Assembly (NCBI GenBank): GCA_963693285.1
Contig: OY848917.1
Span: 20,627,745 to 20,691,744 of the forward strand
Direction of reading: 5' to 3'
Source of the DNA: Xestospongia muta
Taxonomy: Eukaryota > Porifera > Demospongiae > Haplosclerida > Petrosiidae
Length of the DNA: 64,000 nt
Shown one piece after another: positions 3,607-37,700 of the stretch (within the stretch, counting starts at the first letter, position 1; each line of letters opens with the position of its first letter). The translations under genes and the position numbers were made by a program. The notes beneath the pieces were generated by a model that was not told the DNA's origin, searched no databases, and was given only the letters and a program-made list of their open reading frames with translations.

Positions 3607-10081
<6,475 letters not shown>

Positions 10082-11797: not shown

Positions 11798-14700
11798 ATG
11801 GGCGTTCACTTTGTTATTCTAACGTATCTGGTTTTGGGCATACATCAATGTTTAGGACAAGTTGAATTTATTTATGCCGTGGGCAATTCTTACTCAGAAA
11901 TTAACGAAGAACAACCAGTTGGAACGCTCGTACTAGATTTGGACGTACAATATGACAATAGTTTTGGTATTCCTCAAGATGAAAGCACTGGTCTTTATTC
12001 GTTTGTGTCAGGCTTTGATGAGTCGTACTTCACACTTAATTTTAATACTGGTGAAACTAGGAATGCCGTTTTACTAGACAGAGATGCTGATAATGCCACG
12101 ACACAATTTACAATCCAAATAAAGTTTACTAGCAACATAGACTCTACAATCTCTGGTATTGAAGTAATTCAAATAACTTTACTTGACATCAATGATAATG
12201 CACCTATTTTCACTCAATCTTCGTATAATGTTATTGTCCCTGAAAACCAACCACCAGGATCATCATTTTATTATGTTCTTGCAAATGATAGCGATCAAGT
12301 CCAATCAGAGCAACAAGTTGTCGATGAAACCCTGGTAACTATTTATACAATTAGTAATGGCCGTGTTATTTATTCCATTATTGCTGGTAATGAACAAGGG
12401 TACTTCACCATTCATCCCGATGATGGTACACTGTCTATAGCAATGTCTGCAAATTTAGATATTGATGAAATCAACTTTTACAACTTGACTATCAAAGCAG
12501 AAGATGGTGGTGGATTAAATGACACATCACTTGTTCTAATTACGGTAATTGATTCTAATGATAATTCACCTGCTATCCATTATCCTTCGAGTTTTAGTCT
12601 TACTTTTTACGAAGACATATCACCTGAGTTAATCATTGTAGAATCAATGAACGCAACTGATGATGACTTGGGTTTAAATGCAGAAATAACATTTGCTATT
12701 GTCAGCGGTGATGTTACAAACAGTTTCTTTATTAACTCTTCTACAGGACAAGTAGTCATGACAGACAACCTTGATCGTGAAGCTGGTAATCCTATCGTAC
12801 TGACTTTAGCTGCCATAGACCAAGGCATACCACCGTTATCAGACACCATAACCGTCACTATCACCTTACTTGATATAAACGATAGTCCACCAGTATTCAC
12901 AGAAAATGTCTATGAATTTCATGTTGATGAGAGTGCAAATATTGGCGTTACTGTTGGACAAGTTGAAGCTATTGATCTTGACGCAGGACAAAATGGTACT
13001 GTATTTTATAGCATTATTAACAGTACTAGTAATTTTGAGATTAACAATGTAACAGGAGATATAGTAACAGCTGCAACACTAGACAGAGAAACTACAGCAT
13101 TCTACTTACTTCTCATCCAAGCTATTGACAATCCTGTTAATGCTACACTTACCTTTACCAGTACTGCTCTTGTTAACATCACAGTTGATGACGTCAATGA
13201 TAACCCACCTATATGGGCCCAAAGTGAATACTCTGTGGGTATTTTAGAAACTGAACCCATTGGATATATTCTCACAAATCTTCAAGCAACAGATGCAGAC
13301 ATCGGCACTAATGCACAACTTCGATATGAGTTTTTCCTATCAGCTGACTCAACTTTTGCTATTGATTCTATAACAGGCAATGTTACAGTCAACAAAGTAC
13401 TAGACTTTAGTACCAAGTCATTATATACTTATACTGTGCGTGCTTATGATAATGGTATTTTTATCTTGGATGCTACAACTCAATTATCAATTACAATCCA
13501 CACTCCAAATATAAAGGCTCCTAACTTCAAGATCAAGGCATATAATGCAACTATTAAAGAAACTACTCCCATTGATACTATTGTCTTAAATGTTACTGCT
13601 ATAGACAATGATCCAGGACTAATAGGAGAATTACATTATCGAATTCCAGTAGAGTGGCAGTTTGGTGGTGCTGGATCATTTGACGTAGATGCTGATACTG
13701 GTGCAATATTTGTCAATAACACATTGGACTATGATTACAGGTAAGTCATATCTTGTAGACTTACAGCATCTATAATTACTTAGTAAGTAAATGATTTATG
13801 CATTTAAGTTTCTAATAACTGCCATTCAATAATCTAATCACATATACAATGTATCCTTCTTCAAACTGTCTTTTTTCTTTATTCACAGTGGTGATGACAA
13901 TTCCATTTTCTTTCAAGTTGAAGCATATGATGGGGGTTTTCCAGAGCCATTAACAGCTAGAACTAACATCACTATATTTCTGCTTAACACAAATGATGAG
14001 TCACCAATGATTGTCACAGTTTTCCCAAATCTACCCACCATACCAGAAAACATGAATCCTGGTGTTGAGTTTGCTAACCTATCTGACTTCACTATAGATC
14101 CAGACCCTGGTGATGGTGGTCTATTCAATTTTTCATTGCTCCAAATTTTTGATGATGATCCCTCAAACTTCTCATTTAGCCTTACATCAACAGGAATGTT
14201 ATCAGCACTCAAAACATTTGATCGAGAAGCTCGACCAGAAGGCTTTACTTTATTAGTTCTAACAACTGATTTTGGTACTCCCACTCAATCTCGTACTAAT
14301 AATGTGACAGTTGCTATTGGCGATGAGAATGACAACACACCATTCTTTGAAGAAGTTGGAACAGCTGTAGCTTATGAATTTGTACCAGCTGGTCAAGTGG
14401 TGCTACAAAACTACACAGCCATTGATCATGATATTGGAACAAATGCTTTGTTAGTCTATGCTATTACCGATGGCAACATTGAGAACAGATTTACTGTTGA
14501 CAATAGTACAGGTACAATTACTACAACTAAAGTATTGAATAAAACTGAAGAACGTTATTACAACTTAACTATCATGGCAATGGATAGTGGTATAATACCA
14601 TTATATGGATATGGTCAAGTACATATTACAGTACTAGACGCAAACGATAATGCACCAGAATTCATTGAACCACTCACTACCTCATTCAGAGAAGACTCTG

Positions 14701-17700
14701 ATATTGGCTCCATATTTTATACATTAAATGTCACAGATTCTGATGAAGGCACTAACTCACATATTGCCTATTTCTTTGCTCCGAATACAACAACCAACTT
14801 TACCTATTTTGATAACTTAACAAACACAACCATCACAAGATTTTTCTTAAACAGCTCAAGTGGTGCTCTAAGTATTGAAGACATGTTTGATAGAGAGATT
14901 GAAGAATCATACGAATTAACAATTATAGCTATTGATATGGGAATGGTTCCTGTTCCACTCACTTCAACAGCCACTATCGTAGTCAATATTGAAGATGTTA
15001 ATGATAATGTACCCTTATTTGCCAACGACTCATATTTCTTTAATGTCACAGAAAATGAGATGGTCGGCAATCTGTTAGGATACGTTTATGGTACCGATGA
15101 TGATGCTACATACCCTAACAATAAAATAGTGTTTTCGTTGTTTGGTAACAGGAGTGATGTTTTAGCTGTTAATTCAGAATCTGGTCTAATATATGTTAAT
15201 GGTACTGTAGATTGGGAAGAAGGATCCGAATTTACAATTGCTGCCATTATTAGTGATCTTGGAGAGCCTCCTTTATCGTCACAAGTTAGTTTAACTGTCT
15301 ACATTGATGACATTAATGATAGAGCTCCAGAATGGAACATTACATCACTTAATATCTCCGTTCATGAAAACCTTCCTCCAGGTGCTTCTGCTGGTCGTAT
15401 ACAAGCTATCGATCCTGACAGCGAAGGTAATAACTCTCTTGTTGTATACAGTATTGTAATGGACTTCAGTGACAAACATTTTGCATTAAACTCAACTACA
15501 GGTGAAGTCACAACATTAAAAACATTCAACAGAGAGGCTAGAGATTTGTATGATTTTGTTGTTGTGGCTACAGACCATGGCTACAATCCACTTTCATCGT
15601 CTGCTATTGTTTATATTGAGATCTTAGATGACAATGACCACGACCCTTATTTCCTGCATTCTACATTTAGTGGTAGCATTTCAGAAAATGCTGACATTGG
15701 AATGTCTGTTTTACGAGTCTATGCCGATGATGAAGATATTGGTAGTAACGGTGATCTTGTATATTCAATACCTTCGACGGAGTTACCTTTCCGCATCAAC
15801 GCCACCACTGGAGTTGTGTATGTAAGCTCTCAACTTGACTTTGAAACCACACCATCTTATGAATTCACTGTTAGAGTTAATGATAGTGGTTTATTGTCAA
15901 GGGAATCAACAAGCACTGTCTTTATCACCGTCATTGACTACAATGATAACAATCCAGTGTTCGAATCTACTGAATATTCTATTACATTTGTTGAGAATAT
16001 AGCTGTTGGAACAGTACTATTGAAAGTAAATGCATCTGATGTTGATCAAGGAGATAACTCAAGAATTGAGTACATACTAGTTGAAAGCTATGGTAGTAGT
16101 TATTTTGGAGTTAACAATGATACTGGTGTCATTTTTACAAATGCTTTTATTGATAGAGAAGACAGCAGTGATAGTATAAATCTCACCATTATAGCCAATA
16201 ACTCTAATTCTGAAGTAGAACAATATACAACTGTTCCTGTCTTTATCAATATTCTGGACTTAAATGACCAAGCACCAACCTTTAACTCAACAATTACAGT
16301 CAATGTTCCTGAAAATACTTCCATAGGATCTGTTGTATATATTTTGTTACCTAAAGATGGGGATGAAGGACCCAATGGTACAATAAAATACCAAGTTATA
16401 AACGGTGATGTAGATGTTTTTGACTTGAATAGCACTACTGGAATGATTAAGTTATTAACAGCACTTAACTATGAAGGGCAGAGATATTATTACTTAACTA
16501 TTAACGCTACAGATATGGGAGAAGTATCACTTTCCAACTATACATCCCTTATATTTGAAGTAATTGATAGCAATGATCATTCACCAGAATTAGCTGGATC
16601 CTTTTATTTTGTCACCATCAGCTACACAGAAGTCATTGGAACAAAGATATTAAGTTTATCAGCTAGCGACCGTGATACCAGTCCAAATGATGATATTCGA
16701 TATAGTATAGTACCAGGTGAATTTAGCAGTCTGTTTGTCATATCAAGTTCAACAGGATCTATTTTCATTGAACAAGCACTTACGAGCTATGTAGGTATGT
16801 TACTCAATTTAACAGTACAGGCAACAGATGGACAACACAATAGTACTGCTACAGTGTCTGTTCATGTCAGAGGATCAACACTCCCAGTGTTTACAAAGAA
16901 ATTCTATACAATGACTATACCAGAAGATCACGATGCAAGTGTAAGTGTTTTTGACTTATATTCAAATGCAAATCCTGCTAAGTCTAGCAATGTGTTCACA
17001 TTAGTTGGTGGCAATGAAGATAATGCTTTTACATTATTAGCTAATGGAAAGCTATTTGTTGTGACTTCGAAGTTAGATTATGAATCAAAAACACGCTATC
17101 AATTGTCAGTATCAGTGACAGAGTCTAACATTACTGCATATACTATTCTCGATATAATAGTGACCGACGTCAATGAGTTTACACCGATGTTTCCATTGAC
17201 TTCATATTATGCTCCTGTCTCTGAAACCACCCCACGAAGGCAACCATTCTTCAAGCTCATTGCTACTGATGATGACAGATCTTCTCCAGCAAATACAGTT
17301 CGATATTCTATTGCTTCAGGCAATGAAGCCATTATCTTTTATCTTGATTCCATCTCCGGTGAATTAAGCCTTGAAAGAGTCTTAAACTACAATACAGACA
17401 ACCACAACTACACACTCAATATAACAGCCACAAATTCACTTTCCCCACCATATTACTCCTCGTCAACAATTGTCAATGTAGAGCTAATGGATGGTAATGG
17501 TCATACACCATTCTTCAGTCCATTCCTTTATAATGCAATATTATATGAAGATACAGCTATTGGAACACCCATTGATGTGGTAGTCACTGCTTTCGATGGT
17601 GATTTAGGATCTGATGGCACCATTATATATGGCTTGCTAGGAGATCACAGAAATTATGATTTTGAAATTAATCCTATTACTGGAAACATCACTGTAGGTC

Positions 17701-20700
17701 CAGGTGGTCTTGATTATGAACGACATGCTCTCTATACCTTACGAGCTGTTGCTAGCGATGGTGGTGTTCCACAACGATCTGCCACTGCTGTAATCAGTGT
17801 AACAGTTATTGATATAAATGATAACAGTCCAATATGGAAAGCAAACTATTATAATGTAACTGTGATGGAGAATATCACTGTTGGTACTGAGATCATACAG
17901 GTAGAAGCGACAGACTTGGATCCAGTCACTTTTACAGATGATGGTGAAGGCAATAAAATGTTAAGTAATCAAAATGGCTACATTACATACTCCATAACAG
18001 ATGGGGATCCAGTATCACAGTTCTATATTCATCCCGAGAGTGGTATCATTTCTGTGCAGGCTCTTCTTGACAGAGAACTCGCCAGTAATTATACCCTACT
18101 CCTCAATGCTACAGACGGTGGTGGACTCTATGCAAATTCTATTCTATTTATTAAAGTATTAGATATCAATGATGTCATACCTCATATTATCTCAGCGCCA
18201 ACTGCTACAGTTCCAGAAGATGCAGAGAACGGCACATTTATTATTCAAGTTTTGGCCACAGATGAAGATCCTTTACCGTATTCAGACATCGCTTATAGCA
18301 TAGTCTCTGGAAACCTCAATGATACTTTCGTCATTAATACAACAACAGGTGAACTCTTCTTGAACAATTTAATAGACAGAGAAGAACAGAGCTACTACAA
18401 TCTCACAATTGAAGCAGTTGATAATGGTCTTATTTCACTTACTGGCTTTAGTACACTTTTAATTAGTGTCCTAGACATTAATGACCATCCCCCAGTGTTT
18501 GAAAAGAATTCATACAGTGCTAATGTATTTGAAAATCAGTTAATTGGTATTGACATACTTCAAATAAATGCTACTGATCAAGACTTTAAAGAGAATGGTA
18601 CAGTTTTGTATTCAATAATTTCTGGAAATGATATGGGACTTTTTGAAATTAACAGTAAAACAGGATTGATAACAGTAGCAGAAGATATTGATTTTGAAAT
18701 TGTCAAATACCAAATTCTAACAGTAGAAGCCTCTGACAGTAGTCATATCGACACAAGACTTTCAAATATAGTCAACATCACAATCTCCATCTTGGATAGA
18801 AACGATAATGCTCCTCTTTTTTCTCAAGAGAGTTACATGGCTACAGTGTTTGAGGATGGACAACCTGGTGATCTCATTATTTCAATTAATGCATCAGATG
18901 TTGATTCTGGAAGCAATGCTGAAATATCATACTCCTTATTTTACAATGGTGACATTGATGCAGAGACTAGCTTCATTATTAACAGTACATTTGGGTATGT
19001 TACTTTATCATCAACACCATCATTGGATCGAGAATTGAAGAGAAATTTTACTCTCTTTGTCAATGCTACAGACAATGGCAGTCCACCAATGAAATCATCA
19101 GTTGAATTAATAGTTATTATTGAAGATACAAATGATAATGCTCCAGTTTTTACTTCGCTTTTCTTTGAAGGCAGTGTAGTTGAGAATCTTCCACCTGGTC
19201 AAAGTATAGTGACTATTGAAGCAACAGATGCTGACATTAATACAAATGGAATTATACAATACTCCCTTAATACTTTACTTTCAAATTTGTCTCAATGTCA
19301 ATCACATTGCATCAATAATTTCCCTCTTTGTTCTATCATTTTCAACTCAGAAGACAATCAAGGCACTTTCAATCAATTATTGAATGAGTCATTTGAAATA
19401 AATATTTCTACTGGACTTTTACTGTCTTCAGTGTCATTTGATCGAGAGATGGTTCAAACATACGTTTTGTTAGTGACTGCAGTAGACAATGGTATCCCCC
19501 AACTATCTGCCTCCACTTGTGTCTTTATAAATGTTACTGATACTAACGATGAAGTTCCTACTTTTAATGACACTGTCTACCAAGTAATAGTACCTGAAAA
19601 TGCTGTTAGTAATTATTTAGTAACAACAATCCAAGCTTATGATCGTGATGAAGGAGAGAATAAAATCTTAACATACTCACTTACAGATGGCTCTGGTTAT
19701 TTCACAATTCATCCTAATTATGGAGAAATCAGAGCATTAACTTCTTTTGATAGAGAGAATCAAGATACATACAATATCACAGTCTTAGCAAGAGATGGTG
19801 GTAGTCCAACGAATACTGGAACCACTACTGTATTGGTTACAATAACAGATGAAAACGATTCTCCACCTACTTTTGACCTATCACACTATACCACTTCGCT
19901 ACCAGAAAATGCTTTGGTTAACTCGTTAGTTATCACAATTACAGCTTTTGATGCTGATATTGGAATCAATAGTGAGGTAACATACAAACTTATTTCAGTA
20001 TTACCACAATCACACTTCACAATCAATTCAACAACAGGAGATATATTCAACTATCAAACACTAGACAGAGAAACTATAGAAGCATATAACCTCATAATAA
20101 TGGCTAAAGACAATGGTGTAATCCCTCTGAACTCCACCGTAGCTCTGACTATCAATGTGACAGATGTAAATGATAACTTACCGGTCTTTACACAAGATAT
20201 ATATAATGTATCGATATTTGAAAATTCAATACTAGAAAGTCCACTTGTTATTGTTGAAGCAAATGACATTGACATTGGAACAAATGCAGACATATACTAC
20301 AACATAGTAAGTATCAGTCCTTCATTAGAAGGGTTTACTATTAATTCTACAAATGGTGAGTTATATTTGAACACAGAACTCAATGCTGAATTAACACCAA
20401 CACTGACTATTATCGTTCAAGCTGACAATGGAGAAGCAAATCCTTACCAGTACACTAATGCTAGCATTCATGTGCAAGTTTTAGATTTAAATGACAATGC
20501 ACCACAATTTGAGTTTCCTGAGTATGTAGTACCAATATCAGAATTGGCCAGCAATGGTAGTCATGTCATCCAGTTAAATGCAACTGATGATGATATTACT
20601 GTTGCAAACACTGTTCTCGCGTATTCAATCATCTCCGACAGCGCATCATTTGACATTAATGAAACAACTGGTCTCATCTTTGTTGATGGCTTATTAGACA

Positions 20701-23700
20701 GTGAAGACATGCCTGAGCACTTGCTGGAAGTCCTGGTCATAGACAGTGGTGTTCCTTCTTTGAATACTACAGTTACTGTTACTGTCATACTTCAAAATGC
20801 TAACGACAACCGTCCAGTCTTTCAACATTTTAATTATTCATTTACTATTGTTGAAAATCAACCAGATGGAACATACTTTGGGCGAGTATTTGCAACAGAT
20901 GCAGACTTCGATAACATTACTTACCAAATTTCTGACGATACAATAAATAGAACATACTTTCAGATTGACTCTACATCTGGTGAACTTTATTCCAATATCA
21001 GCTTTGATAGAGAACTTGAGTCTATTTATATTCTCACATTACAAGCTATTGATGATTCTTTACTTGGTACAAGTTCAGAAGTTGTTGTTACAGTTGAAAT
21101 TCTCGATGAAAATGATAACCATCCTGAGTTTTCACAGGATATCTACTATATATCCTTGTTAGAAAACACAACAACAAGCTCTGACCTGTTCCTGCCCAAT
21201 GTGTCAGACTCTGATGTTGGCAACAACAGCACAGTAGCATTCTCTCTAAGCCCTACCAATGACTCTACATTTTTCACTATCAATGCAACATCAGGGCTAC
21301 TGAATCTAGAACAAGAATTTGACCGAGAGTCTCAGGATATGTTTACGATTACAATCATTGCTACTGATGATGGTATTCCAGTACTTAATAGCAGTGCTGA
21401 ATTGATGATACATATTTTAGATATCAACGATAACACTCCTGTTTTCACCCAGTCGATTTATAAAGCAGCATTATTTGAAAATAGTGACCATGGAACTGAA
21501 GTATTGACTGTGTATGCAAGTGATAATGATATCGATGAAAATGCCCAGCTGTCATTCTCAATCTCAGAAGAAGTTCATGACATATTTACAATCAATTCTA
21601 GTACTGGACTTTTGATGTTAGTTGGTGATTTAGACTACGAGAACACTCATAACTATTCCTTTGACGTCATGGTCACAGACCATGGTAATCCACCTTTGTC
21701 ATCAACAGCAAATGTATTGATAACTGTACTGGACTTAAATGATAACTCACCTTACTTTGAACAAGAGTTATATCAATTGTTTGTAGAAGAGAATTCAATC
21801 TTAAATTTGCCAATTTTTACAGTTCCAGGTATTGATATCGATGACACAGTTAATAGTGAATTACGTTACACTATTTTAAGTGGTAACATTGGATTCAAAT
21901 TTGACCTGGAAGAAACCACTGGAGTACTATCTGTCAGTGATTACATTGATAGAGAATTGACTACTGACTTTTTCTTAACAGTTAGAGTAGTTGATTTAGG
22001 AACACCTCAATATACAGCTACCACTACCCTCGACATTACTGTTACAGATATCAACGATCATAGTCCTCATTTCTCTGATAACATACTGTCAGTTTCAATA
22101 CCAGAAAATACATCGCATGGCACTGTCATTTTTAAATTACAGGCTACAGATGATGATATAGGATCAAACGCCAAATTGTCTTATGAAATTATTGATAGTG
22201 ATAGAGATCGTTTTCCATTTTACGTTGAAAACTCTACTGGACATGTTGTTGTCAATGGAAGTTTGGATATAGAATCTGTACCAACATATTCACTCTCTCT
22301 TCTTGTTCATGATAATGGTGATATCAGACGATACGATACAGCGGTACTTTCTATTTTGTTACAAGATATCAACGAACATTCTCCACATTTCTTCATACAT
22401 AGTTACACCTTAAACATATCAGAGGAAACTGCTATAGGCACTCCAATTGCTTACCTGATAGCTATGGACTTGGACAGTAACAATGATGAGTCTGTGTTAT
22501 ACACGATTGCTATTTCTAATACAAACAATTTTGCAATCAGTGAAGCAGGTACTTTGTATGTCTATCAGATATTAAATGTTGGAACTTTTAATCTCACTAT
22601 CAATGCAAGTGATAGTGTTTTCACAAGACAAATCACAGTTGAGATTACTGTACATTCACGATCTTATACTGGACCATTATTTCAGTCTCCAACCTATTAC
22701 TATGAAATATCAGAGGCTACCCACATTGATGCAACTGTTGGAACAGTCTCACTGTCTTCTAACGTTGACCTACTTGCATTTGTTACACCTGATCGGAACC
22801 ATTCTAATATTGCAGCCGATCACTTCAAAATTAATAACAACGGCTCCATTATCCTCATTGATCAACTAGATTTTGAGACCTCACCATATTATGTACTCAA
22901 TCTTCAAGCAACATCCTCTTTTGGTCAGACAGTATATACAATCATAACAGTCTTGGTTGTTGACTATAATGATCATCCACCATTGTTTTCTAGCTCTGAA
23001 TTTACCATATTCCTTTCAGAGCTTACCCCTCCTGGCACACCTATCATTACATTACAAACATATGATCTTGATTCTCCAGGAGTCAATAGTGACACAAGAA
23101 TACAGTTAGTAGAAGGACATGAAACATTCTCGTTAAATGAGTACACTAAGGTTGTCTCATTGAAACAACCTCTAGATAGAGAATTAGAAGACACACTTAT
23201 AATAACTGTTAATGCTACAAATTACCTTGCTTCACCTTTGCTATACAGTATGGTAACAATTCAGATTACAGTGTCAGATGAAAATGACAATGATCCTCAC
23301 TTCAGTGAGATATTTTATTCTACAAACGTCTTTGAAACAACTCCTGTAGACACTGAAGTTGCTATCACAGAAGCTACAGATATTGATGAAGGCAGTAATG
23401 CAGAGTTAGTGTATTCTATTACGTACCAGAGCTCTCCTGGAGCATTTGATATTAATCATAACAACGGTAGTGTCTACAGTAAAACAAACTTTGATGGCAT
23501 GGAAGGATCTTTATTTACAGTATCAATCATGGTGGCTGATCACGGATCTCCTATTCCTCGTGTGGATACAACAATTTTGTTTGTCACAGTCTTCAAAGAT
23601 AACTTAGAGGCACCTGTGTTCAGTCAACGTGATGGCTATGCTCTCTCTATTGATGAGACTCAGCCTGTTGGTAGTTCTGTTTTACAAGTATCTGCTTTAG

Positions 23701-26700
23701 ATCCAGAATATAACACCAGTGCTGTATACTACTCAATACAGTCTGACTTGTTACTACCATTTGCTATTTCTCCTACATCTGGTGTTATAACAATATTAAA
23801 GAAACTCAACTATAGCACCAACAATTTTTACTCTATCTCCCTCTCTGCGACAGACTTTGGCAACCCACCTAAATCCACAACTACACAACTTAATGTCACA
23901 ATTATTGACATCAACAACCATAGCCCTGTCTTTGATGCTATTACCTATTTTATCAATGTTACTGAAAATGTACCAAGTGGGACATTTGTGTTACAAGTAC
24001 ACGCTACTGATGTTGATGCTGTTAGTATACTATATAAAATCACAGTTAATCATCTGGTAAATGGTATTAATGCATTCAGTATCAATGAAACAACAGGGGA
24101 GATAGTCATTGCTACACAAATCAACAGAGAAGTATCTCCAACGATAGAGCTGTTAATATCAGCCATTGATACTGGTTATTCAATACAGCGATCTACAAGT
24201 GTTCCTGTAATTATTGACATTAATGATATCAATGATGAGACACCAATTTTCAACCAATCAGAATACAGCGTTGATGTTATTCGTCTCCTGCCACCTGGTC
24301 AACAGGTTATCACCGTACATGCATATGATACAGACATATTGAGTGATAAATTAATATATAGCATATCATTTCAGTCAATACCTGGATTGTTTACCATTGA
24401 TGCTACTACTGGAGTCATTACAACTGCATACACTGTCCCAGAAGATGTCCTGAATTCTACTAACATCAGTATAGCAGTGCATGATGGAGCTCAGACATCG
24501 ACTGTAATTGTGAATGTCATTGCTGTTGATGATGGAACATTCTGTGAAGGTATAGTTCACATTTAATAATACATTGTTATTTTTAATCAGTTGTGTCATT
24601 GAATCCTTTTATTGACAGGTGAATTCTGTACTAGTGTAACACCAAGGTTGTTAGAATGCAACTACGTCATACCTTCAAATCCAATTTGTAATCCTTACTG
24701 CACCAATGATAAAGTAAGTATTGTTGTGATGATTTTAACTCTCAGCTTTTTCAGTATGCATTTTATTGTATATGAAATTTCAACTATAAGCGATAGTGTT
24801 ATCAACAATATTATACACTATATAATATGAACTAATATTGTTAGCTCGAATAACAATGATCAGGTTTCAAAATGTCTCAATTCTTTTGACAGGAACTGTC
24901 TCAAAACACGTGGTTGTGTCTGTCATACTTCTGTCTCAATAGTGAGCAGGTAAATGAACTCACCTCCTATGTCCCATGAATTTAATCACATTAGTTTTAA
25001 TTATTACATGAATATTCAGTTATTGTAGTAACTTATTTCCTGCACTTTAGGTACCATGTATTATTAACAAAGAATGTCTTCCACAAGAAATGGCATGTGC
25101 TGGAATTTGTCCTTTAGGAAAATCTGTTTGTCCTACTACCAACATATGCTATGCTCTAAGTAATGAGCAACCATGTGATGTCAATACTTGCCTTAATGGT
25201 CAAACACTGATTCAAAGATCAAATGGAACACGATATTGTGGACCATCGTCAAGTCTTCCAATCCAAGGTCAAACATGCAATACAAGTGATGTCATTTACT
25301 GTGAAGAACTAGATGTCTGCTCTAATTTGACAGCCCCTCATCTATGCCAGGCCTGTCCTGATGGTTTGATTGCTTGCTCTGATACAAAGGAATGTGTCAC
25401 AGATTCTCAGCTTTGTTGTGGCTACAATGCTGGCTTTTGCCAAATATTAAATAAATGTTTACCTACTGGTGAAATATGTCAATTACCAAACATTGCTCCA
25501 GTAATACCTTCTCCTCTAATTTATATTGACAGTATAGATCAGCCACCCTATAAAGGTCATATGGTCGGTATTATACTTGGTAATAATAGTATTGCTGTTG
25601 ATGAACAAAATGAAGAAGTTAGCATAGCAATAACTGACATTTCAAATACATCACAGGATTTCGGTGAATGGCAATATGCTCTGTGTCATAGCTCTTTCTC
25701 TGTTTGTACAACTTGCTTACATTTATCAACACCTTGGATAAAAATAACCAATGTATCTGATGACAATGCACTCTACCTTCCTAATACTGCTTGTCTACGT
25801 TTCTGGAGAAAATCAATTGAAATTGAAGGAGCCGTTTGGTTAAGTGGTAAGCTTTGGGATGGTAGTATTAATGGATACTTAAGCAACTCCACAACTCTTG
25901 TGAGATATCAACAACCATACCATAACACTACATTGACTTATAGTAGCAATGGACCAATCAGTCAAAACTCCACACTATTACTTTCCTTGTTACTTCCACT
26001 CACTGAGCCACCCAATTTTAGCTCAGATGCTCCTTTGGCACTAACAGATATAGATGAAGAGGTTCCACTCACACATAACCTTGGTGACAGCATTGACAAA
26101 TTGGTGTTGTCAGTCTCCACTCACTATCTACAACAACTTTCAGAGTCTAAAATACAAGGACTTCCTGACAGTGACATTGGATTGTCTTATGAAGAGTTGA
26201 TACCCACATTTATCAAAGATGACTATTATAACAATGCTACAATAGCTAATGTAATTAGAAAGCAGCGTCTACAGACCTTAAGCAATGGACAAATGAGTGG
26301 AGTAGCTGTTTCTTTACTTTCCTTAAACAGCCCTTGGCAGGTCTCAATTAATGGCGATCCACAACTCTTTGTTTATATAAATGACATCCTCACTTCCACT
26401 GACCAATTGTTATTACTCAATACATCTTCCCTCATTCGGTTTTTGCCACCTTCAAACTTTCATGGCACAGAGAGTCTTGGAGTAAAAGCCTGGGATGGAG
26501 TCATTCCAGATTCATCTGGACAATTGACAGTACACAATTCATTGACATACGTATCTAGTTTGGATGCTTTGAGCATATATCATGTAAACACTCAACAGTA
26601 TGTCAAAGTCAATATCAACAGTATCGCTGATGTCCCTACAATAATCCAAACCACTACAACATTACCTCCATTACCTTACACATTGGAGTACCATCATGAG

Positions 26701-29700
26701 CGACTCTTCACTGTCTTAGTTGGTCAGAGTTTTGACTCACTTCGATCCATTCAAGAAGCATTAGATGGTTTATTTTCTCTTATATTAGATGAAACAGTTT
26801 CTGTACATCGACTTTATCCAGCATCTGGAAACAGGTATGGGTTTTTATCATAAATTTAGAATATACATTAATTACTGCTTTCATTTTTACAGCACTTACT
26901 TAAGCTTTTCTGTTGACAATAATGAACTCACTCTATCTGAAATTAATGATAAAATCACATCGAAGGACATTGTTGACTCTGTTATTCCCATTATCAGTAT
27001 TTCACAAGGTAAGCAATGTTCTATTTGATTGTCTACACAACTACAACCGAATACTGATTTCTCATTAAAATGTAGTTGAATGAATCTGTGGTAGGTAATA
27101 ATGCATCATGCTATTTCTAATTAATTTGTGTCTCATAGATTTACCAATTCAATTTATCTTACAGATAGCCACTATGGACCAGGAAGTCCATGCTATTCTG
27201 ATAACACTGCTGTTACCGGTGCTCCAACTAGTAGGAATGTCAATGTTCTAGCATTTCAGCTAGCTAATGACACTGACAATGACTTTCTAGGTCTAGCTGT
27301 TGTCAATGTTAATGATGGATATGGACAGGGAGTATGGCAATACTTAAGAAGCAAGCACCAGAATTATTCTGATGATCCCATCTCCAGTAAGTTTGAAACA
27401 TAATAATAATACATGTATCTATCACGTGCCATTGTAATATCAAAATATGTTACACATTTTTTGTTGGAATAGGTTTGTGGATCAACTTTCCTCCCAATAT
27501 TACCAACACAAATGCTCTTCTTCTTCATGGTAATGACAGTCTTCGTTTCTTACCTAAACCTCTATATTACTGGCAATCAACTGATGCACCTAAACTAACT
27601 GTCAAAGCCTGGGATGCTACACAAGGAGAATTAGGTCCAACAGAATCATCATGGATGAATATTAACACAGATCCATTCAGTAACACTACACAATCACTTT
27701 CAAACAGACTAGGTCTCTTTAGTTCATCAACAGCAACAATAGTGGCTACAAGATTTGGTTGCGATGGAGTCGTGAACTCGCAAGTTATCCACGATGCATG
27801 TTGTACGTGTGGAGGTAATGGGGCTACCTGTGCTGGGTGTGACAATGTACAGGGGTCTAATGTGAAGATAGATGGTTGTGACATCTGTGGGGGCAGTGAA
27901 AACACTTGTCTTGGTTGTGATTATATACCATTCTCGTTTACTTCTTTTGGAGTTTGTTCTGAATGTATCGGTACCATTTCTGTTCCAAGTGATAATAGTA
28001 ATCTTCCAGCCACATTATATCCTTCTACATCATTTCAAGATTGTTCTGGAACATGCTTTGGTATGTCTGTGAATGATGACTGTGGAGTGTGCTCTGGTGG
28101 TGGGACTTCTCATAGCTTTAATGAAGACAAGTGAGTGTATGCATAATATGATTCATGCAGTATGCATTTCACATAAATTCTAATTAATATGTATCTTTTC
28201 TCAATTGTTGTGTACTCCATAGATATATTTGTTCTCATTTTTATGCCAACACATTGTATGGATTCTATCTATTAGCATATGCTATTGAGTGCTTTATTTG
28301 CGAGAAGAAAAATAAAAAAAAATTGCATTTCCACATTACTATATATATGCTTATACATTAATCTACATTAAGTTTGTTGGTAACTACTACACTGATACTT
28401 TTCTTCTTTAGGGATTGTCTTGGAATTTGTTTTGGTAATAATACTGTTGATAACTGTGGGTACTGTATAGGACCTGGGACAGATATATCATTCAATGAAT
28501 ACTTAGATTGTACTGGAGTTTGTAATGGACCATTTAGAGCAGATTCCTGTGGTATATGTCAATTGCCTGACAGTGATGGTACCATAACTCAATATGCTGA
28601 TTGTAATGGGGACTGTTTTGGATCAGCAAAGGTTGATGATTGTGGAGAATGTTATGGTGGAAACACTGGTAAAACAGCTAACTCCACCATGGATATCTGC
28701 GGTGTTTGTGGTGGTGATAATTCAACGTGTTATGGTTGCAATGGAGTTGTCAACAGTGGGCATACTGTTGATAGCTGTCACATATGCGGAGGTAATGACT
28801 GCGGCTGCTTTCATATCACTACCATCTCACCTCAAATGGGACCTCGTACAGGAGGCACTCAGATAACTATTAAAGGAGCTGGATTTTTCAAAAATGGAAC
28901 ATTCTATAACAACACCTTACCTCTCTGTGGGAGCTCTTTGACTGATTCTCTAGGCAAATCTATTCCTGTGACTTGCCAATTTATTAGCAATGATGAAGAG
29001 ACTGTACCAGGCTCAGCTTATATTGTTGATCAAAGTACTGTAATATGTCAAACACCAGCTTTAATTGATGATCAGACTCTTAGAGAACAATTTGATCTTA
29101 GCATTAGAATTGATAATGGACAATTCTCTAATTCAGTACCTTTCTATTATGACAATTACAACCAGATAACTGTGACTGATATAGCCCCAAAAGAAGGTCT
29201 TATTAGCACAAACATTACTCTCATTCACACTGGCCAAAACTTCATGAATAGCTCTCTAGCAGCTTGTTTACTGTATGGATATGACACTTGTATTCCTGAT
29301 AACTCAAACAATTACTTATCTGTCCCAGCTGTATTCGTTAATCCATCCACCTATTATTGTATTCTACCATCCAAAAGCTATCCTTGTCAGATTAAAGTTG
29401 ATCTTACTCTTGATGGACAAGTATCTGGAACAGTGACACCTGATACCTTCGATTCAATCTTCACATACTCGTTCTCTGCTCCTATAGTGAACTCAATTCA
29501 CTTTACAGACAATATCTCGTCACTTGTTTTATTATTGGATAGATCCAGCATACTCTCAAATAATCAGAAGATGTCATGTGATGCCATATTTACTGAATCA
29601 ACAGTCTTTCTTCTTGGAGGTAATAGTGCTCAGTGCTTTTGGGCTAATGACCATCATCAAGAAATATTGGTTACCTTGCCATATCAGGCCAATATAGCAG

Positions 29701-32700
29701 TTAACTCACCTATTAAATTTAAAGACAATGTTATTGGTACAAGGGGACCTCAGTTCAGCCTCAAAATACAAAACACAATAACTTACATTTCCAATGTCAC
29801 AAACGCTATCTACCCAGTTCCCGTCATCTTAGGACCACAGTTCATACCAAATTGTGGGTTTATACAGTATATTGCCACTGCCTCTCTTTATCAAGGATAC
29901 AGAGGATTTCATTATCGATGGTCAATTTATACACATAACTCATCTATCTCTGGTTTCAGTCAGGTAGTTAGTACTCTGAATGGTTTGCCTTTAACGGCAG
30001 GAGAGATCTCACTACCATCAAATCTCTTCCAACTATCAGTGCCATATACACTTCAAGTAGAAGTAACTAATTCACTTGGACTGTCAGCTTCAGTTAGCAG
30101 AATTATCAGTAAAACAATGTCTTCAGTTCTTGAAGTGGCAATTACAGGACCAAAAGAAAAGGTCATCAATACTGGAGAGAATCTTTTAGTCGAAGGTTAT
30201 GTGATCAATAATGAGTGCTCATTACCAAATGGTCCATTCGTATATCAATGGCGTCTTTATCTTATCATTGATCAACTTCAAAATATACTTCAGCATCAAC
30301 CTCTCTCAAATATAGTGTCCAATAATCCAGTTCTATACATACCATCGTCTGTTTTTATACCAGACTCCAAGTATCAACTACAACTAACAGTTACAGCTAA
30401 CAATGATGCAACAACTTCCAATGACACCCTCGATATTACAATATTGCCACCAATGTGTGTTGCTCGTATACACGGTGGTGATCGTAATATCTCCAGTAGC
30501 GAGACAGTTCTCTTAAATGCTTCCTCTTCAGTAATTATTGAAGGATTAAAATCATCACCAACATATACATGGGCATGTTCAGTAGTGGGTAATGGAGGTC
30601 CATGTTATAACAGCACAGAACCTGTCTTCATACCAATCTACCTGCCAAAATCACCAAATGTGCTTTTCCCAGCATCCAATCTACAGTCTGGATTACAATA
30701 CAACTTCACCTTAATACTTAGTCATGGTACATGTATCTCAAAATCTACAGTCATTATTAGCACTTACCCCTCATTTGTTGACCCAATAGCTGTTGTCCAG
30801 ATATTAACAACAACAACTCAAGTTGTCTCATCACAATATCTAATCTTAGAAGGACTAGTTTATCCTAACTATCTTGTAAATGTGTCGTGGTCTTGTCTTG
30901 ACCTGCCAGGTCAAGGTTACATTGATCTTATTACTGGCAACTACACAATATCTCCAACTTACTACACGTCTACCTCAACTATCAGTGTTAGTCCCTTAAC
31001 TGAGTTTGTGAATAAGGCTATGACTAGACAAACAAACCGAGTTAATTTGGTAATAAAACCGCACTCACTTCAGCCAGGTTGGAAATACACCTTTCAACTC
31101 AGTGCACAACATGACCAAACTATCGTGTATTCCAAGATAACTATCATTCCTGAACACCCTCCAGTAATTCATAACTTCTTTGTCACTCCACACAGTGGAG
31201 TAGCATTGAATACACCCTTTCAGTTGTCTGTGAACTGGACTACAGATAATGTAAATGACCATCCACTCTACTATCAGTTTGGTGTTGTATTGGCTCAAGT
31301 CAAATATTGGTTTACAGGGCCCGGCACAGAGAATTCTATTACGGTCAGCCTACCACCTGGTGACATAGCAATAATTGCCAGAGTATATGATAGCTTATTA
31401 GTAGAATACAGTGAATATCAAATTGATATGTCTGTATCTGTAAATTCTTTTATTAACTACCAATCATCCATTGACAATTTAGCTAATGATCTACAAAACA
31501 CTAAGAGATGGCCTTCAGTATTCTCAGGACTTATCACTACTCTTCTCTCAGTAAGCACTACATTAAATAATGCTCAATCAAAGTCTGTACTAAGTCTTTA
31601 TTCAAATATTTTGAACAATTACATGCCATCAATGAAAGAGCACTACATGCTTATGTTAACGACAATGGAATTGATTACTATGAAACTATCTTTTACTGAA
31701 TTGAATGACAAAATTACTATATCAAACCAATTGAATTCTATTCTTGATGCTTTCATAAAAACAGTAGATGGAAATTTCCAAGAAAGCAATGTTGTTGTCT
31801 CCTTGACAGATAACAATGGTCTCCCCTTGCTTCTAACAAGTGATCGATATAATCTTCAACATTTTAATTATGGTATTGATGATAGAGCAATAGATACAGT
31901 TGTTAATACCATTACTAACTTGTACACATCTAATTGGGACTCAACTCTTGCTAGACAACTGCGAGAAACTATGACCAAACTAACAAGTGTTCTATGTAGA
32001 CAACATGTCATAGGTCAACGAGGAATAACAAGAACTACTAATATACTGAGTTATTCCTTTGAAAAACAGTTCCCATTTGGCACATTTTTTATCAAAGAAG
32101 GAACAATCGACTTCTCCAACAAACTCAATCAATTTTACAATAAGCAAGCTTGTTCACATGCCAGCATTGCCTGTTCTGAAATGTGTCTTAACTTCATAAC
32201 TACAACAAAAGACTATTTCTCTAATACCAGTCAAATTGTAACTATTGGTACTAAATCACAAGATGCCATAAAGTCAGGCATTGAGGGAGTTGATCCTCAA
32301 GCAATTCAACTACATTCTGATATAGTAACTGTAGATTTAGCTACTGCACTTCAGCAGACTGTGTTGTCAGTACAAAACCTTCCTTCTCCAATACGTGTAT
32401 ACATACCTGTTGGAAGTATCTCAAATGACAAAAGCCAACCTATTTGCATCTTCAGAAACACTACAGTTGAAAGTAATAGTCAATGGGAACTCGATACTTT
32501 AGCACCACCATCTGTTATACCTATTAATGGTAGAGAACACTACCTCTGTGAGTATAACCACCTCTCAGAATTTGCAATTGGGTTATTACCACCTCCAGTC
32601 ATCACATCTTCCTCACCTTCTTCTATGATGGGATCTTCAAGCCCTATACCATCACCAAGTCCAACTTCATCAAGTGTGACAATGTCATCTTCTCCAGTTG

Positions 32701-34364
32701 TCTCTTCTGTTCCCATTGATAATAACTCAGGTCCAGTGATTGCTGGAGTAGTAGTTGTTGTCCTCTTCATGATCATTCTCACATCAAGTCTCCTTGTAGT
32801 TGCATTCATTGTTTGGAGAAAGAAATATCATAAGAAACTAAGAATAGCAGCGGTAACACCTAGTGAAGAAAACAAAGTTCTTCTAGAGGAAGAACCAGCT
32901 CCACCAGCTAAGGATGATGGAAAAATTTCACTTGGAGTAATTCAATTATTAGCAGATGGAGAAAGGTTAGCATTAGGTAGTGTTGATGCCTTATCTTCTA
33001 TGAGACTTCGCGAGTTGAGAACACAATTGACAGAAGTATTTGACTCTCTCAAAAATAAGCCATTTTATTTATGCACAAAGGAGTTGTGTGATATTGATCC
33101 CTCTTCTGAGCAACAGCAGTTTGTGAGCATTGTTTATGGTAGTATTGTGTATATCCGAGAAATTACAGCAGTAACAGAAAAAACAAAGAAAGAGTTTTGC
33201 ATATGTGGTGCTGCAGCACAGTTTGAATGTACTGGTTGTGTTAGGGGTTACTGTAGTCAGGAGTGTCAACTAAAACATTGGGAAGATGGCCATCAAAGAG
33301 AATGTCAACGTGTTAGTGAGAAGAGACAACGTACAGATATCCTTCTTCGACAACAAACGCCGACCACTCTCCTCCTGTCTTCAAATCAAGAACGAACGGA
33401 AGAGTCAGCACAACAAAAACCATCAGTGAGTACACCAACCAACTGGAAAAGCTTTCTTTCAGATTCAAAACGATATTCTTCTCCTCCAGTTTCTCCAAGA
33501 ACCAGTGTGACAGTACAGCCACTACAACCATTACCAGAACAAAGACATACTATGACTAAAGAACAATATCAAGAATTAAAACAACAATTTAAGTCACATA
33601 TACCAGAGCATAAATCAGACGGTACAATGCAGCCACGATCACAAGTATCAATGCAACCAAAGTTACCACGTTTAGCATCAACTGGACAGGTAACAACTAT
33701 AGGAAAACTAGCTTCACAAACACCATCAATACAACTATCCAGATCTGGACAATCTTCTCTTCCAGCAGCTTCTTTGAAAAGCAGAACACAATCATTGCAA
33801 GCCCCAGAAGTAAGATCACAACCTGGTCTTTCTCCTTTGAACATTGAAGGATACCACCCAATGCAGAATATACCTGGTCCTTATCAGTATCAGCAAAGAA
33901 TCAGCCCTCAGCAACTAGCAAACACATACTCACAACAGCAATTAGGTCAATGGTTTCATAAACGGGAGCTTGGTCATCAGGAATCACAAACTCCTACTGT
34001 TCAGACACCATACTTCATGCCTGCTAGACCATTTCAACTACAACCATTGTTACAACGTGACTTGTCCATTACATCTGTTGGTTCAGCTGACCTAAACCTC
34101 TCGACTATGAGTAATCTTCCTTTGAAAAAAGATGTTCGAAATGAGCCTGTCCTCGAACATGACCATGAATCATCCTCTTCCTCATCTACAGAAAGTGAAG
34201 ATGATGATGTACAGGAACAACAAGTCAGTCGACCACCATCACTAGCAGTACGTAGACGTCATTCTTCCAGAGTACAATCTCAAGCAATAGCTGAAGTTTC
34301 ACATGAAGGTCTTGTTGATACATCAAGTGATGAAAGTGAAGACATTGACAAGGAAAACAGTTAG
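11798..34364 (+). CDS. Giant cadherin / IPT-TIG / REJ / GPS-like / MYND type I membrane protein, 9 coding exons
   Basis: Exons 11798-13740, 13889-24549, 24619-24713, 24893-24949, 25051-26834, 26893-27008, 27165-27386, 27473-28130 and 28412-34364 join in frame to 7,162 residues, all with GT-AG introns. Order: signal peptide (1-20); about 39 cadherin repeats (22-4200); small cysteine-rich exons (4203-4403); modules with the pattern WQ...RF.P...(K)AWD (4403-5020); CGG-type cysteine-rich cassette (5054-5311); two IPT/TIG folds (5313-5530); REJ-like region (5650-6190); GAIN-like region ending in a GPS-like motif (6556-6571); Ser/Pro stalk; membrane helix (6620-6648); cytoplasmic tail with a MYND finger (6775-6810). 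It is probably an adhesion or signalling receptor with its long rod outside the cell. There are no EGF or laminin-G domains and no beta-catenin-binding tail, so it is not Fat, Dachsous or a classical cadherin. ATG at 11798 was chosen because it begins the hydrophobic leader; the frame upstream opens only with GTG. Confidence 0.92.
11861..24540 (+). other. Array of about 39 cadherin repeats
   Basis: I counted repeats by their end motif (D-x-N-D-N/H/E-x-P-x-F or variants) and inner motifs (xEN/xED after the first strand, LDRE, A-x-D-x-G). About 39 fit, each near 105-110 residues. The repeats mostly keep the calcium ligands, so most linkers should bind calcium. Links after repeats 5, 15, 33 and 36 lack the D-x-N-D-N signature. 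Asn-x-Ser/Thr sites are frequent. Repeats 1 to mid-6 are in exon 1; all the rest are in the single 10,661-bp exon 2. Confidence 0.92.
24549..25500 (+). other. Cysteine-rich segment after the cadherin array
   Basis: Residues about 4203-4403, over exons 3, 4 and the start of exon 5, hold more than 25 cysteines in short spacings (CEGEFC, YCTND, CLSYFC, CPLGKSVC, CQACPDGLIAC, LCCGYNAGFC). No domain I can name; probably small disulfide-knit modules. Confidence 0.75.
25501..27660 (+). other. Adhesin-like modules with WQ...RF.P...AWD pattern
   Basis: At least three repeats end in a shared signature: GEWQYAL to SGKLWDGS, SPWQVSING to GVKAWDG, and GVWQYLRS to TVKAWDA. A RF(W/L)(R/P)P-like strand precedes each. 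The sheet-like pattern resembles modules of giant bacterial and protist surface adhesins, as far as I recall. The match is by eye only. Confidence 0.55.
27754..28808 (+). other. Cysteine-rich CGG repeat cassette
   Basis: Residues about 5054-5311 repeat D-x-C-G-x-C-x-G with GCD/CNG lead-ins (for example DGCDICGGSENTCLGCD, DICGVCGGDNSTCYGCN, DSCHICGGNDCGC). The motif CGVCGGDNSTC also occurs in ADAMTS cysteine-rich regions and in protist and bacterial surface proteins. Exon 8/9 splicing (28130|28412) falls inside the cassette without breaking the pattern. Confidence 0.75.
28812..29475 (+). other. Two IPT/TIG domains
   Basis: The first begins ITTISPQMGPRTGGTQITIK with GAGFF after it, the classic IPT/TIG opening (I-x-P-x-x-G-P-x-x-G-G-T-x-I-T-I-x-G-x-x-F). 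The second begins VTDIAPKEGL and continues ITLIHTGQNF. IPT/TIG folds occur in plexins, Met-family receptors and fibrocystin-like proteins. Confidence 0.85.
29800..31440 (+). other. REJ / PKD-like region
   Basis: Residues about 5650-6190 show repeated (Y/H)-x-W strands (FHYRWSIYTHNS, FVYQWRLY, PTYTWACSVVG, NVSWSCLDLPG) and the block VARIHGGDRNISSSETVLLN, which resembles the receptor-for-egg-jelly module of polycystin-1 and PKDREJ proteins. Divergent; domain limits approximate. Confidence 0.65.
31441..32590 (+). other. GAIN-like region with GPS-like motif
   Basis: A helix-rich stretch (about residues 6190-6400) is followed by strands and the block YLCEYNHLSEFAIGLL at about 6556-6571. This matches the C-x-(C/Y)-N-H-L-(T/S)-x-F-A core of GPCR proteolysis sites, where cleavage occurs after H-L. 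The usual upstream Cys-Trp pairs are only partly present (CIFRNTT, QWEL), so cleavage competence is uncertain. Confidence 0.6.
32591..32818 (+). other. Ser/Pro-rich stalk and single transmembrane helix
   Basis: A mucin-like stalk of mostly S, P, T (about 6572-6618) leads to the helix VIAGVVVVVLFMIILTSSLL followed by VVAFIVW. A basic stop-transfer stretch RKKYHKKLR follows, fixing an extracellular N-terminus. There is no second membrane span, so this is not a polycystin-type channel. Confidence 0.9.
33192..33305 (+). other. MYND-type zinc finger in the cytoplasmic tail
   Basis: Residues 6775-6810 follow the MYND pattern: CTGC, then YCSQEC seven residues before an invariant-type H, then a final C (H6806, C6810); QLKHWEDGHQ matches the usual Q-x-x-x-W-x-x-H. 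The first pair is spaced C-x-C (6775, 6777) rather than C-x-x-C. MYND fingers usually bind proline-rich peptides in co-repressors and SET-domain proteins. A segment just before it (about 6690-6770, RELRTQLTEVFDSL to VYIREI) could be a small beta-grasp fold; I cannot name it. Confidence 0.85.
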
Positions 34365-34505
34365 GAAAAAAGATAATGGATATGTTGTGACTTTTTATAT
34401 TGATTGTATTATTTCTTTTATTTGAAGCTTTTTAATTGTTTTATGCATTTATTATATCTTGTTATGTAAGCAAATGATATTGTATACTGTTTTAACAATA
34501 TTTTA

Positions 34506-34511
34506 AATAAA
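34506..34511 (+). terminator. Poly(A) signal of the giant cadherin gene
   Basis: AATAAA about 140 bases after the TAG at 34362-34364. Confidence 0.75.
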
Positions 34512-34518
34512 GGGAATA

Positions 34519-34524
34519 TTTATT
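34519..34524 (-). terminator. Poly(A) signal of the acyl-CoA synthetase gene
   Basis: AATAAA on the minus strand, about 180 bases past the synthetase stop. It sits 8 bases from the plus-strand cadherin signal, so the two 3' UTRs should overlap. Confidence 0.6.
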
Positions 34525-34702
34525 AAATTTAGCAGGAAAATAAGGTCCAGCAATTAACAATCAAATAATAGTAGTCAAATGAGTAAACACTTCGTACAGT
34601 TCATAATTAATTTACATTTTAATATTTTAATATTACAACAGATATTAATAGCATCAAATATTAGCAAAGTGTCCAGTTAATAGGATCCTAAAGGATCCTA
34701 AA

Positions 34703-37700
34703 TCATTCAGCATACATCTGGGTCACATAATCTTGATATTTCTCCACAACTGTCTTTCGCTTGACTTTGAATGTAGGAGTAAGTTCACCACCATTAACAC
34801 TGAAATCACAAGGTAGAATATGAAATTTCTACAAAAAAGTAGAGTGATTATATTATTTCAAGAATCGTTCCAGAAATGTGTTAAATAGAAGCAATAAAAC
34901 ATCCAAAGCTTCAAAGATTATAGTTTGTATAGACAGTACAGTACGTAAATTGTACAAACAAAACTACATAAATGAGCAACTATATACTTCATTTACCTGA
35001 ACTCGTGCTGGTCTGCTAATAGCCTCTTCATTAACTTGTTCCATGCCTTGTTGAATGTAGTCCTTCACAAGATCATCAGTCCTAGCCTCAGAAACTAAAA
35101 AAGAAAACATTCTCTAACTTTAAATCAAATTGTTTTATTATATAAACCATAACTAGGATGATGTACATAAGTGATGTATTACCTCAATGATAAGGACATA
35201 TATGAACTATGAAGAAGTTATACACACCTAATTGTCATAATCAGAAAGTGGTATATCACTTACATATACTAACTTCACACAATTCATACATTCTAATTCT
35301 CATAGTGAGTATAGGTTGAGTATACTATGTGCATTCATTAATGGACATTCCAATTCTTATTTCCTATATCTTCCACGCACCTTTGCATATTAAAAAATTC
35401 CAATTAACGACCCAGTTGATGAATTCCAATTTCTTATTCCTAATTCTATTTTTGGCACGTCTACCATTTCTAAGCTTTTTTTGTTACTTAATAAAACACA
35501 AAGAGCAAGTACCACGAGTCGTCAGTTAGAATCAAGTGTCAGCGAGATGTTTCCAGTTGGATTGGGTTCCTGAATTTGGTCATATATTAGAATTGGAAAC
35601 CATCAACTGCATCTTTAATTGGAATATAAGGTGTGCGGAAGAAATTGGAACTAAGAATAGGAATGTCTATCTGTGGCTTCCATAGGATGTGAAGAACATA
35701 TATAGCATTTTCCAGTTTACACTTTTTCTAAGTAGCTAGTACTCTAGTTTTTTCTGAAAAATTTGCAGACTAACAAGGCATTTTAAATAATGTAAACCAT
35801 TTTTCTCTAGCTCATTTCTAGCCAGGGTTATAACTTTTGAGTCAAACAAGAGTATAGCAATCTAAACCAAAATGACATAGGTAGCTAATGCAATAGTATC
35901 ACAATAACTATGATGTTTTTATTACAGATGATTGTTACCTGTTGTGGCAGTGGAGCCAATTTCATTCAACACAAGTTTAGCAAGAGAATCTAATTCTTCA
36001 GTAGGATTGCCAAGGTCATCAACCTAATAAAGATTAAAACAATGACAATCACAAATGAACAAGAATTAGTGTACTATAATTTACTATAATTATAGAGAAA
36101 CATTTACCTTACATTTGATGGTTACAAACATAGTGAGGTAACGTTGATCATCTCCTATAACCATCACATTACTTAGAAGACGCATTAATGTTAACATACG
36201 CTGGAAGAAGACAACAATAATATGATTAACATTGTATTAATAGGATGGATGATTGTTCTAGGGTTGCTATAAACATACAGGACCTTAAACAAATTTTATT
36301 ATACTTACATTTTCAATAGGTACTGGTGCAATATTTTCTCCTGCTTTAGTAATTATTAGTTCCTTAGATCGTCCAGTGATATAATAAAATCCTGCAATGT
36401 AGTATCATGAAATGAGTCATTAAAAATAATAAATACTGAAAATGTAACATAACATGTAAATTAGCAAATCACAAATGAATTTAATTTGCTATCTAGTTGG
36501 TCAATTATAGGTCACAATTATCCATAAATGTGTGTCATAGACACAGGTCACTCTAATTCTAACGTCCACTGAGTTTGTTCTTTTTTTTCTCAAGGGTTAG
36601 GGACTAGTACAAAAGCAACATTGCAAACTAACTTCTAAACCAGTTAAAAACCTTGGTGTTTGATCATTTCATTGCTCAGTAATGCTCAGAAGGATAAAAT
36701 CCTCACAAGTCCTATAATACTCTTCCTGACATTTGGGCATCATAATACTGGTTTATTTAGGTAACTAGTAACTTCCATTTTCATCTATAATCTATCCATT
36801 TCACATATATGAACAATGTGAAGATTATTCCATGTCATTATTGTGAGAAACAAATCATAATAACTTTATTGAACACACCATCATCATCCATATTTCCAGT
36901 ATCTCCTGTGTGAAACCAGCCATCTTCATCAATACAGGCTTTGGATTTCTCTTCATCATTAAGATATCCCATAAACACATGGCGTCCACGAAGACATACT
37001 TCTCCATCACCGTTTGGTCCAGGACTATCAATTCTAACCTCACCACCCATAAGTGGATGTCCAATAGAAGTCTGTTTGAATTTGTCTAAGGAGAAAGTAA
37101 ACAAATAATAGCTAGCTATATACTAAATGTATATCTCAAGGTGAACAGAATATATACCGTATACCGGGATTTATTGGCGACCGATAAAATTTGGCGAATT
37201 TGCGAATTTCAAAAAATCGCCAAATTAAATAACAGTCAAAATTTATCACTTAGTCGCCACACCCACGAGGTAAGTTTTCTCCAACAATAGCATTCCATAC
37301 ACTTGGTAGTCTCTAACCATAGACATTAGAAACTATTCCAATATCTATGTTCTAACAACAGAATCAAACCTGAACTCAATTTTATTTCATTAAAGTGGGT
37401 GTGGTATCAAGACATGTGCTAAATTCGTCAAATTTAATTCGCCAATTATAAAATTTTACAATTCCACCAAATTTTATCGTCGCAAATAAATCCCGGCATA
37501 CGGTATGTGTCAACAACTATTACTTCAGAGTTTCATTCAATTTGTTGCTGATTAATTCACATGTCAGACTATCCTATGATTGTTTACACTAGAGGTAACA
37601 TAATCCATACAGATGTATGACTAGTTCTTGTATTATTTTATTCTGTTGTCATATGTAACTTTTGAAAAGCAACAAACTAAATTTATCACATACTCTAACA

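Follow-up and report, generated by a model that had tools for sequence, protein, structure and literature searches.

What kind of protein is encoded by a sponge gene whose long run of cadherin repeats continues into modules of quite different receptors, and is it a single gene? This question is raised by a 64,000-nucleotide stretch of Xestospongia muta DNA (the window, C1:20,627,745-20,691,744, from contig OY848917.1 of a genome of 158 Mb in 28 contigs), which carries a giant cadherin gene on its forward strand. The explanation that best covers the evidence as a whole, and which we consider probable, is that a single gene encodes a single-pass adhesion receptor and that this receptor belongs to a conserved family, probably one of sponges.

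Nine exons, as proposed in the initial annotation, join into 7,162 residues and a single terminal stop without an internal stop, and the length and end points given there proved exact. Each of the eight introns has GT..AG ends, and the collinear stop-to-stop frames on the + strand comprise 663, 3577, 600, 245 and 2000 residues. The protein has a hydrophobic start and one strong membrane helix in 7,162 residues, which, together with the joined frame, supports the single type I membrane protein that had been proposed. Exon 9 by itself encodes Cys cassettes, TIG, REJ, the GPS region, the membrane helix and the MYND finger, and the extracellular and cytoplasmic parts are thus joined without an intron. 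Besides the signal past the stop codon (Table 1), AATAAA occurs within the gene at 25450, 28311 (intron 8) and 31052.

The gene structure read from the sequence was compared with that of relatives. When the end of the cadherin exon served as query, 1,967 candidates were scored, 1,353 of them under E 1e-60; of the best 120, which were listed, 94 were compared, and 59 of these align at or above 36% identity. With exon 9 as query, the protein search covered candidates of 0.55-1.75 times 2,000 residues, a range outside which full-length annotated relatives fall, including XP_003386184.1. Nine relatives (P0092, P0095, P0098, P0101, P0105, P0108, P0109, P0115 and P0120) carry exons 2-5 as one fused open reading frame (ORF), which passes the position of the exon 2 donor and continues for about 650 residues that resemble exons 3, 4 and 5. 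The five of these that were aligned show 38-40% identity over 672-683 residues and end a few residues from the exon 5 donor. ORFs of 4,196-4,243 residues all (19/19) have a hydrophobic start and an exon 1 match at 38-44% identity, with exon 2 downstream. Because relatives fuse exons 1-2 and 2-5, any gene break must lie 3´ of exon 5. In the exon 9 alignment, 8 of 16 rows reach the exon start, and all eight share the residues RDC after unrelated residues, which suggests a conserved splice acceptor. Equal-sized contigs carry C-terminal and cadherin matches for four of 18 distinct sizes (404,902: P0010 and P0048; 428,366: P0015 and P0082; 33,126: P0017 and P0071; 719,764: P0023, P0024 and P0032), a pairing that is indirect because the size reported is that of the longest contig per cluster. 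In the 33-kb case, a 3,582-residue cadherin ORF lies near a 2,084-residue receptor ORF. Overall, the gene is real and conserved, and very probably a single one.

Pfam (PF00028) finds 39 cadherin stretches, five in exon 1 and 34 in exon 2, and residues 1-4201 contain calcium-type motifs (24 DxN[DE][NHS], 28 AxDxD and 24 LDRE-like). With tandem extracellular cadherin repeats and calcium-binding motifs, the protein belongs to the cadherin superfamily. Within the cadherin portion, a hydropathy scan detects no strong membrane helix. The stalk that follows contains weak matches to Big_9 in exon 5 (18.5 bits, below the cut-off of 23.6) and to ADAMTS_CR_3 in exon 8 (18.6 bits, below the cut-off of 21). 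Two TIG stretches and a REJ domain were also found by Pfam, so that the reported junction of about 39 cadherin repeats to TIG and REJ holds.

Next to the membrane, structure prediction yields a GAIN domain, whose best Foldseek match is the CADH9-GAIN of CELSR1 (E 3.3e-10). The window protein contains HLS, the H-L-[ST] cleavage motif of GAIN receptors, and HL[ST] is kept in 13 of 16 rows, the three exceptions reading HFT, HLA and NFG. The GPS profile is matched weakly by 4 of the 13 members of the GAIN alignment (best E 0.011). At window 32583-32603 (P0004 residues 1408-1414), immediately past the GPS strand, the LLPP residues are fully conserved and the following P and I nearly so. This LLPPP[VI]I resembles the PPPL-type ligands of MYND fingers, yet it lies on the extracellular side.

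In the cytoplasm, a ubiquitin-like (UBL) domain of beta-grasp fold is predicted between the membrane and the MYND finger, where the initial annotation had overlooked it. Its best Foldseek match has an E of 9e-4, and the two highest-ranking matches have TM-scores (by query length) of 0.34-0.38. The MYND finger itself, already annotated, scores 22.5 bits in the whole of exon 9 (cut-off 22.7) and 25.8 and 28 bits in the tail alone; Pfam recognizes it in all 13 members of the tail alignment, and its eight zinc ligands are all kept in 16/16 rows. The first ligand pair is CxC in this family, in contrast to the usual CxxC spacing. Cadherin_C is not matched in any protein piece at E <=1 or in the tail alone at E <=10. 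Among prokaryote and viral contigs, 52 and 30 stretches match the tail pattern, none of which was confirmed as a relative.

Several results weigh against reading the locus as one gene for a self-cleaving receptor of this type. The Pfam GPS profile does not match the window protein, and a profile built from the GAIN alignment finds nothing at E <=1 among PDB sequences. Because that search gave nothing, the GAIN assignment rests on the predicted fold and on the pattern of Cys, Trp and HL[ST]; the GPS-like site noted earlier has gained a predicted fold, in which it falls between the last two strands, but no Pfam GPS match. Since HL[ST] is replaced in 3 of 16 rows, cleavage cannot be obligatory across the family. 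The window protein is plausibly a cleavable receptor, whereas the cleavable signalling tail suggested in the initial annotation is an inference. The structure matches of the UBL are modest, and its fold is common. The other 14 of the 18 contig sizes are unmatched among the best 120 of the 1,353 cadherin matches, and no ORF among the relatives compared spans exons 6-8 or the exon 5-9 joins, so that these joins rest on frame, splice sites, the shared RDC and the equal-sized contigs.

Three other explanations were weighed. One, which we regard as improbable, derives the protein from the polycystin-1/REJ family by gain of cadherin repeats and loss of PLAT and the channel helices. A single Cys pair marks the GAIN/GPS that follows REJ in polycystin-1 and in the window protein alike, and the order REJ then GPS/GAIN before the membrane is shared with both polycystin-1 and suREJ3. 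Two proteins annotated with REJ and GPS (P0021 and P0022) are the only more distant matches in the C-terminal search. Although REJ (Pfam) and GAIN (predicted fold) are accounted for, PLAT is not found by Pfam, one strong helix stands in place of several, and a cadherin array is added. The absence of a polycystin GAIN from the structure matches listed is not evidence against kinship with polycystin. A coral REJ protein has PLAT and several membrane passes, according to the available part of PMC4890752. CELSR/Flamingo proteins likewise have a GAIN domain downstream of a cadherin array, the GAIN domain of the window protein being a predicted fold. They have LamG, EGF and seven helices; in contrast, the window protein has REJ, TIG, one helix and UBL-MYND, and Pfam matches neither LamG nor EGF at E <=1 in its four pieces.

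A counterpart has been published. In the available text of Zhu et al. 2013 (PMC3620549), Amphimedon queenslandica XP_003386184.1 has cadherin repeats, VSP, IPT, REJ and MYND, with a VSP-to-REJ span of 5114-6215; two Monosiga proteins share its residues 4900-6300, and the four extra domains are treated as confined to A. queenslandica. Compared by that description, it shares with the window protein cadherin repeats, IPT, REJ, a membrane region and MYND at near-equal residue numbers (REJ 5780-6195 here), and the two are very likely the same gene or orthologues. The architecture, which the initial annotation had taken to be unknown, is therefore on record, but for one protein under the dachsous name and not for a recognized family. 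In contrast to our description, the main text of PMC3620549, as available, does not contain "GPS" or "ubiquitin", and "gain" appears once, as an ordinary word. New beyond that text are the GAIN and UBL predictions, the conservation across the family and the cadherin-free relative elsewhere in the genome. Within the open-licence literature searched, XP_003386184.1 is named in no other paper and no other paper on such a REJ/MYND cadherin was found; the available parts of PMC13245172, PMC13197933 and PMC9729800 name none, and PMC7882143 is, from its available part, unrelated.

The same available text (section 6) leaned to dachsous by BLAST reasoning, but its own tree placed the protein with neither Fat nor Dachsous. 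That the gene is a sponge Dachsous, as filed there, appears very unlikely. The long cadherin array would fit. One named match to the cadherin region among the matches listed (P0110) is called Protocadherin-16, which we take to be a Dachsous-type name. However, the named animal matches among those listed are mostly Fat 4/Fat-like at 27-30% identity, which could simply reflect a long array, and without Cadherin_C at the thresholds above, no region like the catenin-binding one of Dachsous was found.

Least probable of all, in our judgement, are two neighbouring genes, one for a secreted cadherin that ends in a Cys-rich tail, the other for an independent TIG-REJ-GAIN-MYND receptor. Such a receptor half can stand alone, as in a cadherin-free relative at C1:22.4767-22.485 Mb with its own hydrophobic start before TIG; intron 8 holds an AATAAA, in P0006 a hydrophobic stretch that includes a Met precedes the start of exon 9 (a possible leader mimic), and the exon 5-9 joins are the ones that no relative ORF spans. 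Against this stand the fusions of exons 1-2 in 19 relatives and 2-5 in nine, the RDC at the putative exon 9 acceptor, the equal-sized contigs (one of just 33 kb), a cadherin part without a strong membrane helix of its own, and XP_003386184.1, published, as far as the available text goes, with both halves in one protein.

REJ occurs at three loci of the genome: in this gene, in a copy at C1:21.60 Mb and in the divergent cadherin-free gene (C1:22.477-22.485 Mb). The latter shares TIG, REJ, one helix, a cytoplasmic LKELRN...YIER and CxC-type MYND with the window gene; it differs in a laminin-type EGF before the helix, in two MYND fingers and in a UBL match that is marginal (E 0.028 versus 0.13 for the best of 1,000 shuffles). 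No cadherin match at E 1e-3 was detected in the 30 kb upstream of it (tblastn with the whole cadherin protein), which indicates that the receptor half exists cadherin-free. The copy at C1:21,600,100-21,607,000 (L026 and L027) corresponds to window 30650-37564 at 97% DNA identity over at least 6.9 kb; it begins inside REJ, has a 1,244-residue ORF that runs through MYND, and carries an inverted 363-bp piece at its left edge. P0007, which comes from a different source, matches this copy at 99.9% identity. Decayed copies of the 3´ end of the gene lie on C1 and C7 (L011, L012, L013, L015 and L016, against window 33485-36700). Three of them (L011, L015 and L016) extend well beyond the end of the gene and lack all or nearly all of window 35312-35704, a segment that looks like a later insertion and holds an inverted repeat (35397-35431/35591-35625). 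Mobile capture of the 3´ end was rejected, since three of the five fragments compared reach past the end of the gene and segmental duplication suffices.

Table 1. Features of the cadherin receptor gene in the window (aa, amino acids)
Feature	Position	Strand	Basis
Complete coding span, giant cadherin gene	11798..34364	+	9 exons, 7,162 aa; GT-AG sites, open joined frame
Exon 1: signal-peptide-like start, first cadherin repeats	11798..13740	+	5 cadherin stretches; exon 1 matched in 19/19 relatives
Exon 2: ~34 cadherin repeats	13889..24549	+	PF00028, 34 stretches, 1491 bits
Exon 3: Cys-rich region begins	24619..24713	+	Splice/frame; intron-less homologous residues after cadherin repeats in nine relatives
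Exon 4: Cys-rich region	24893..24949	+	Splice/frame; alignment to intron-less relatives
Exon 5: Cys-rich region and adhesin-like modules (judged by eye)	25051..26834	+	Splice/frame; relatives; weak Big_9
Exon 6	26893..27008	+	Splice sites and frame only
Exon 7	27165..27386	+	Splice sites and frame
Exon 8: Cys-rich cassettes begin	27473..28130	+	Splice sites and frame; weak ADAMTS_CR_3
Exon 9: Cys cassettes, TIG, REJ, predicted GAIN, membrane helix, predicted UBL, MYND, tail; one open frame	28412..34364	+	RDC exon start in 8/8 rows reaching it
Best TIG/IPT stretch (one of two)	28815..29150	+	PF01833
REJ domain, aa 5780-6195	30213..31460	+	PF02010, 125 bits (cut-off 25)
GAIN domain, predicted	31554..32591	+	Predicted fold
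GPS tetrapeptide N-H-L-S, aa 6561-6564	32556..32567	+	Between last two strands of predicted GAIN
Single membrane helix, aa 6625-6647	32748..32816	+	Mean hydropathy 3.04
Ubiquitin-like (beta-grasp) domain, predicted	32913..33161	+	Fold prediction; relatives 69% identical on average
MYND zinc finger, first ligand pair CxC	33198..33305	+	Pfam; alignment
Poly(A) signal AATAAA	34506..34511	+	142 bases past stop codon

Other loci were seen in passing. Unusually long single open frames occur at C4:8.820-8.844 Mb (8,283 residues, cadherin repeats) and C13:4.8757 Mb (13,770 residues, with TIG), and a cluster of about 10 TIG-rich genes in tandem, their frames 2,810-3,546 residues long, lies at C1:19.74-19.98 Mb. 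Cadherin repeats and GPS are same-strand neighbours at C7:7.793-7.800 Mb and C4:8.789-8.798 Mb, which are candidate CELSR-like genes; GPS matches number at least 150 in the genome overall. On the - strand of the window, a 716-residue frame (58465-60615) has ankyrin-repeat and Roc/GTPase matches, with Roc below its cut-off.

For the probable single-gene receptor, we propose that the roughly 39 cadherin repeats would provide a long adhesive reach stiffened by calcium, carried on a stalk of Cys-rich, adhesin-like, TIG and REJ modules. The GAIN domain abutting the membrane would cut itself at HL|[ST] in most members, and the cut ectodomain would stay held non-covalently. Pull on the ectodomain, or its shedding, might then alter or release a short membrane stub, whose cytoplasmic UBL and MYND module may dock partner proteins.

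Whether the protein stands for an unrecognized, sponge-wide receptor class (cadherin-GAIN-single helix-UBL-MYND), an alternative to CELSR and polycystin in which a cadherin array was added to an older TIG-REJ-GAIN-TM-MYND receptor (TM, transmembrane helix), is in our view evenly balanced. If true, calcium-dependent adhesion or force would be turned into an intracellular signal by a route of the lineage's own. The conserved UBL-MYND tail would call the dachsous filing of the gene into question. Sponges are central to the origin of animal cell adhesion and signalling, and a GAIN-backed tail of this kind, in place of a catenin-binding one, would mean that adhesion was coupled to signalling early on by a separate path.
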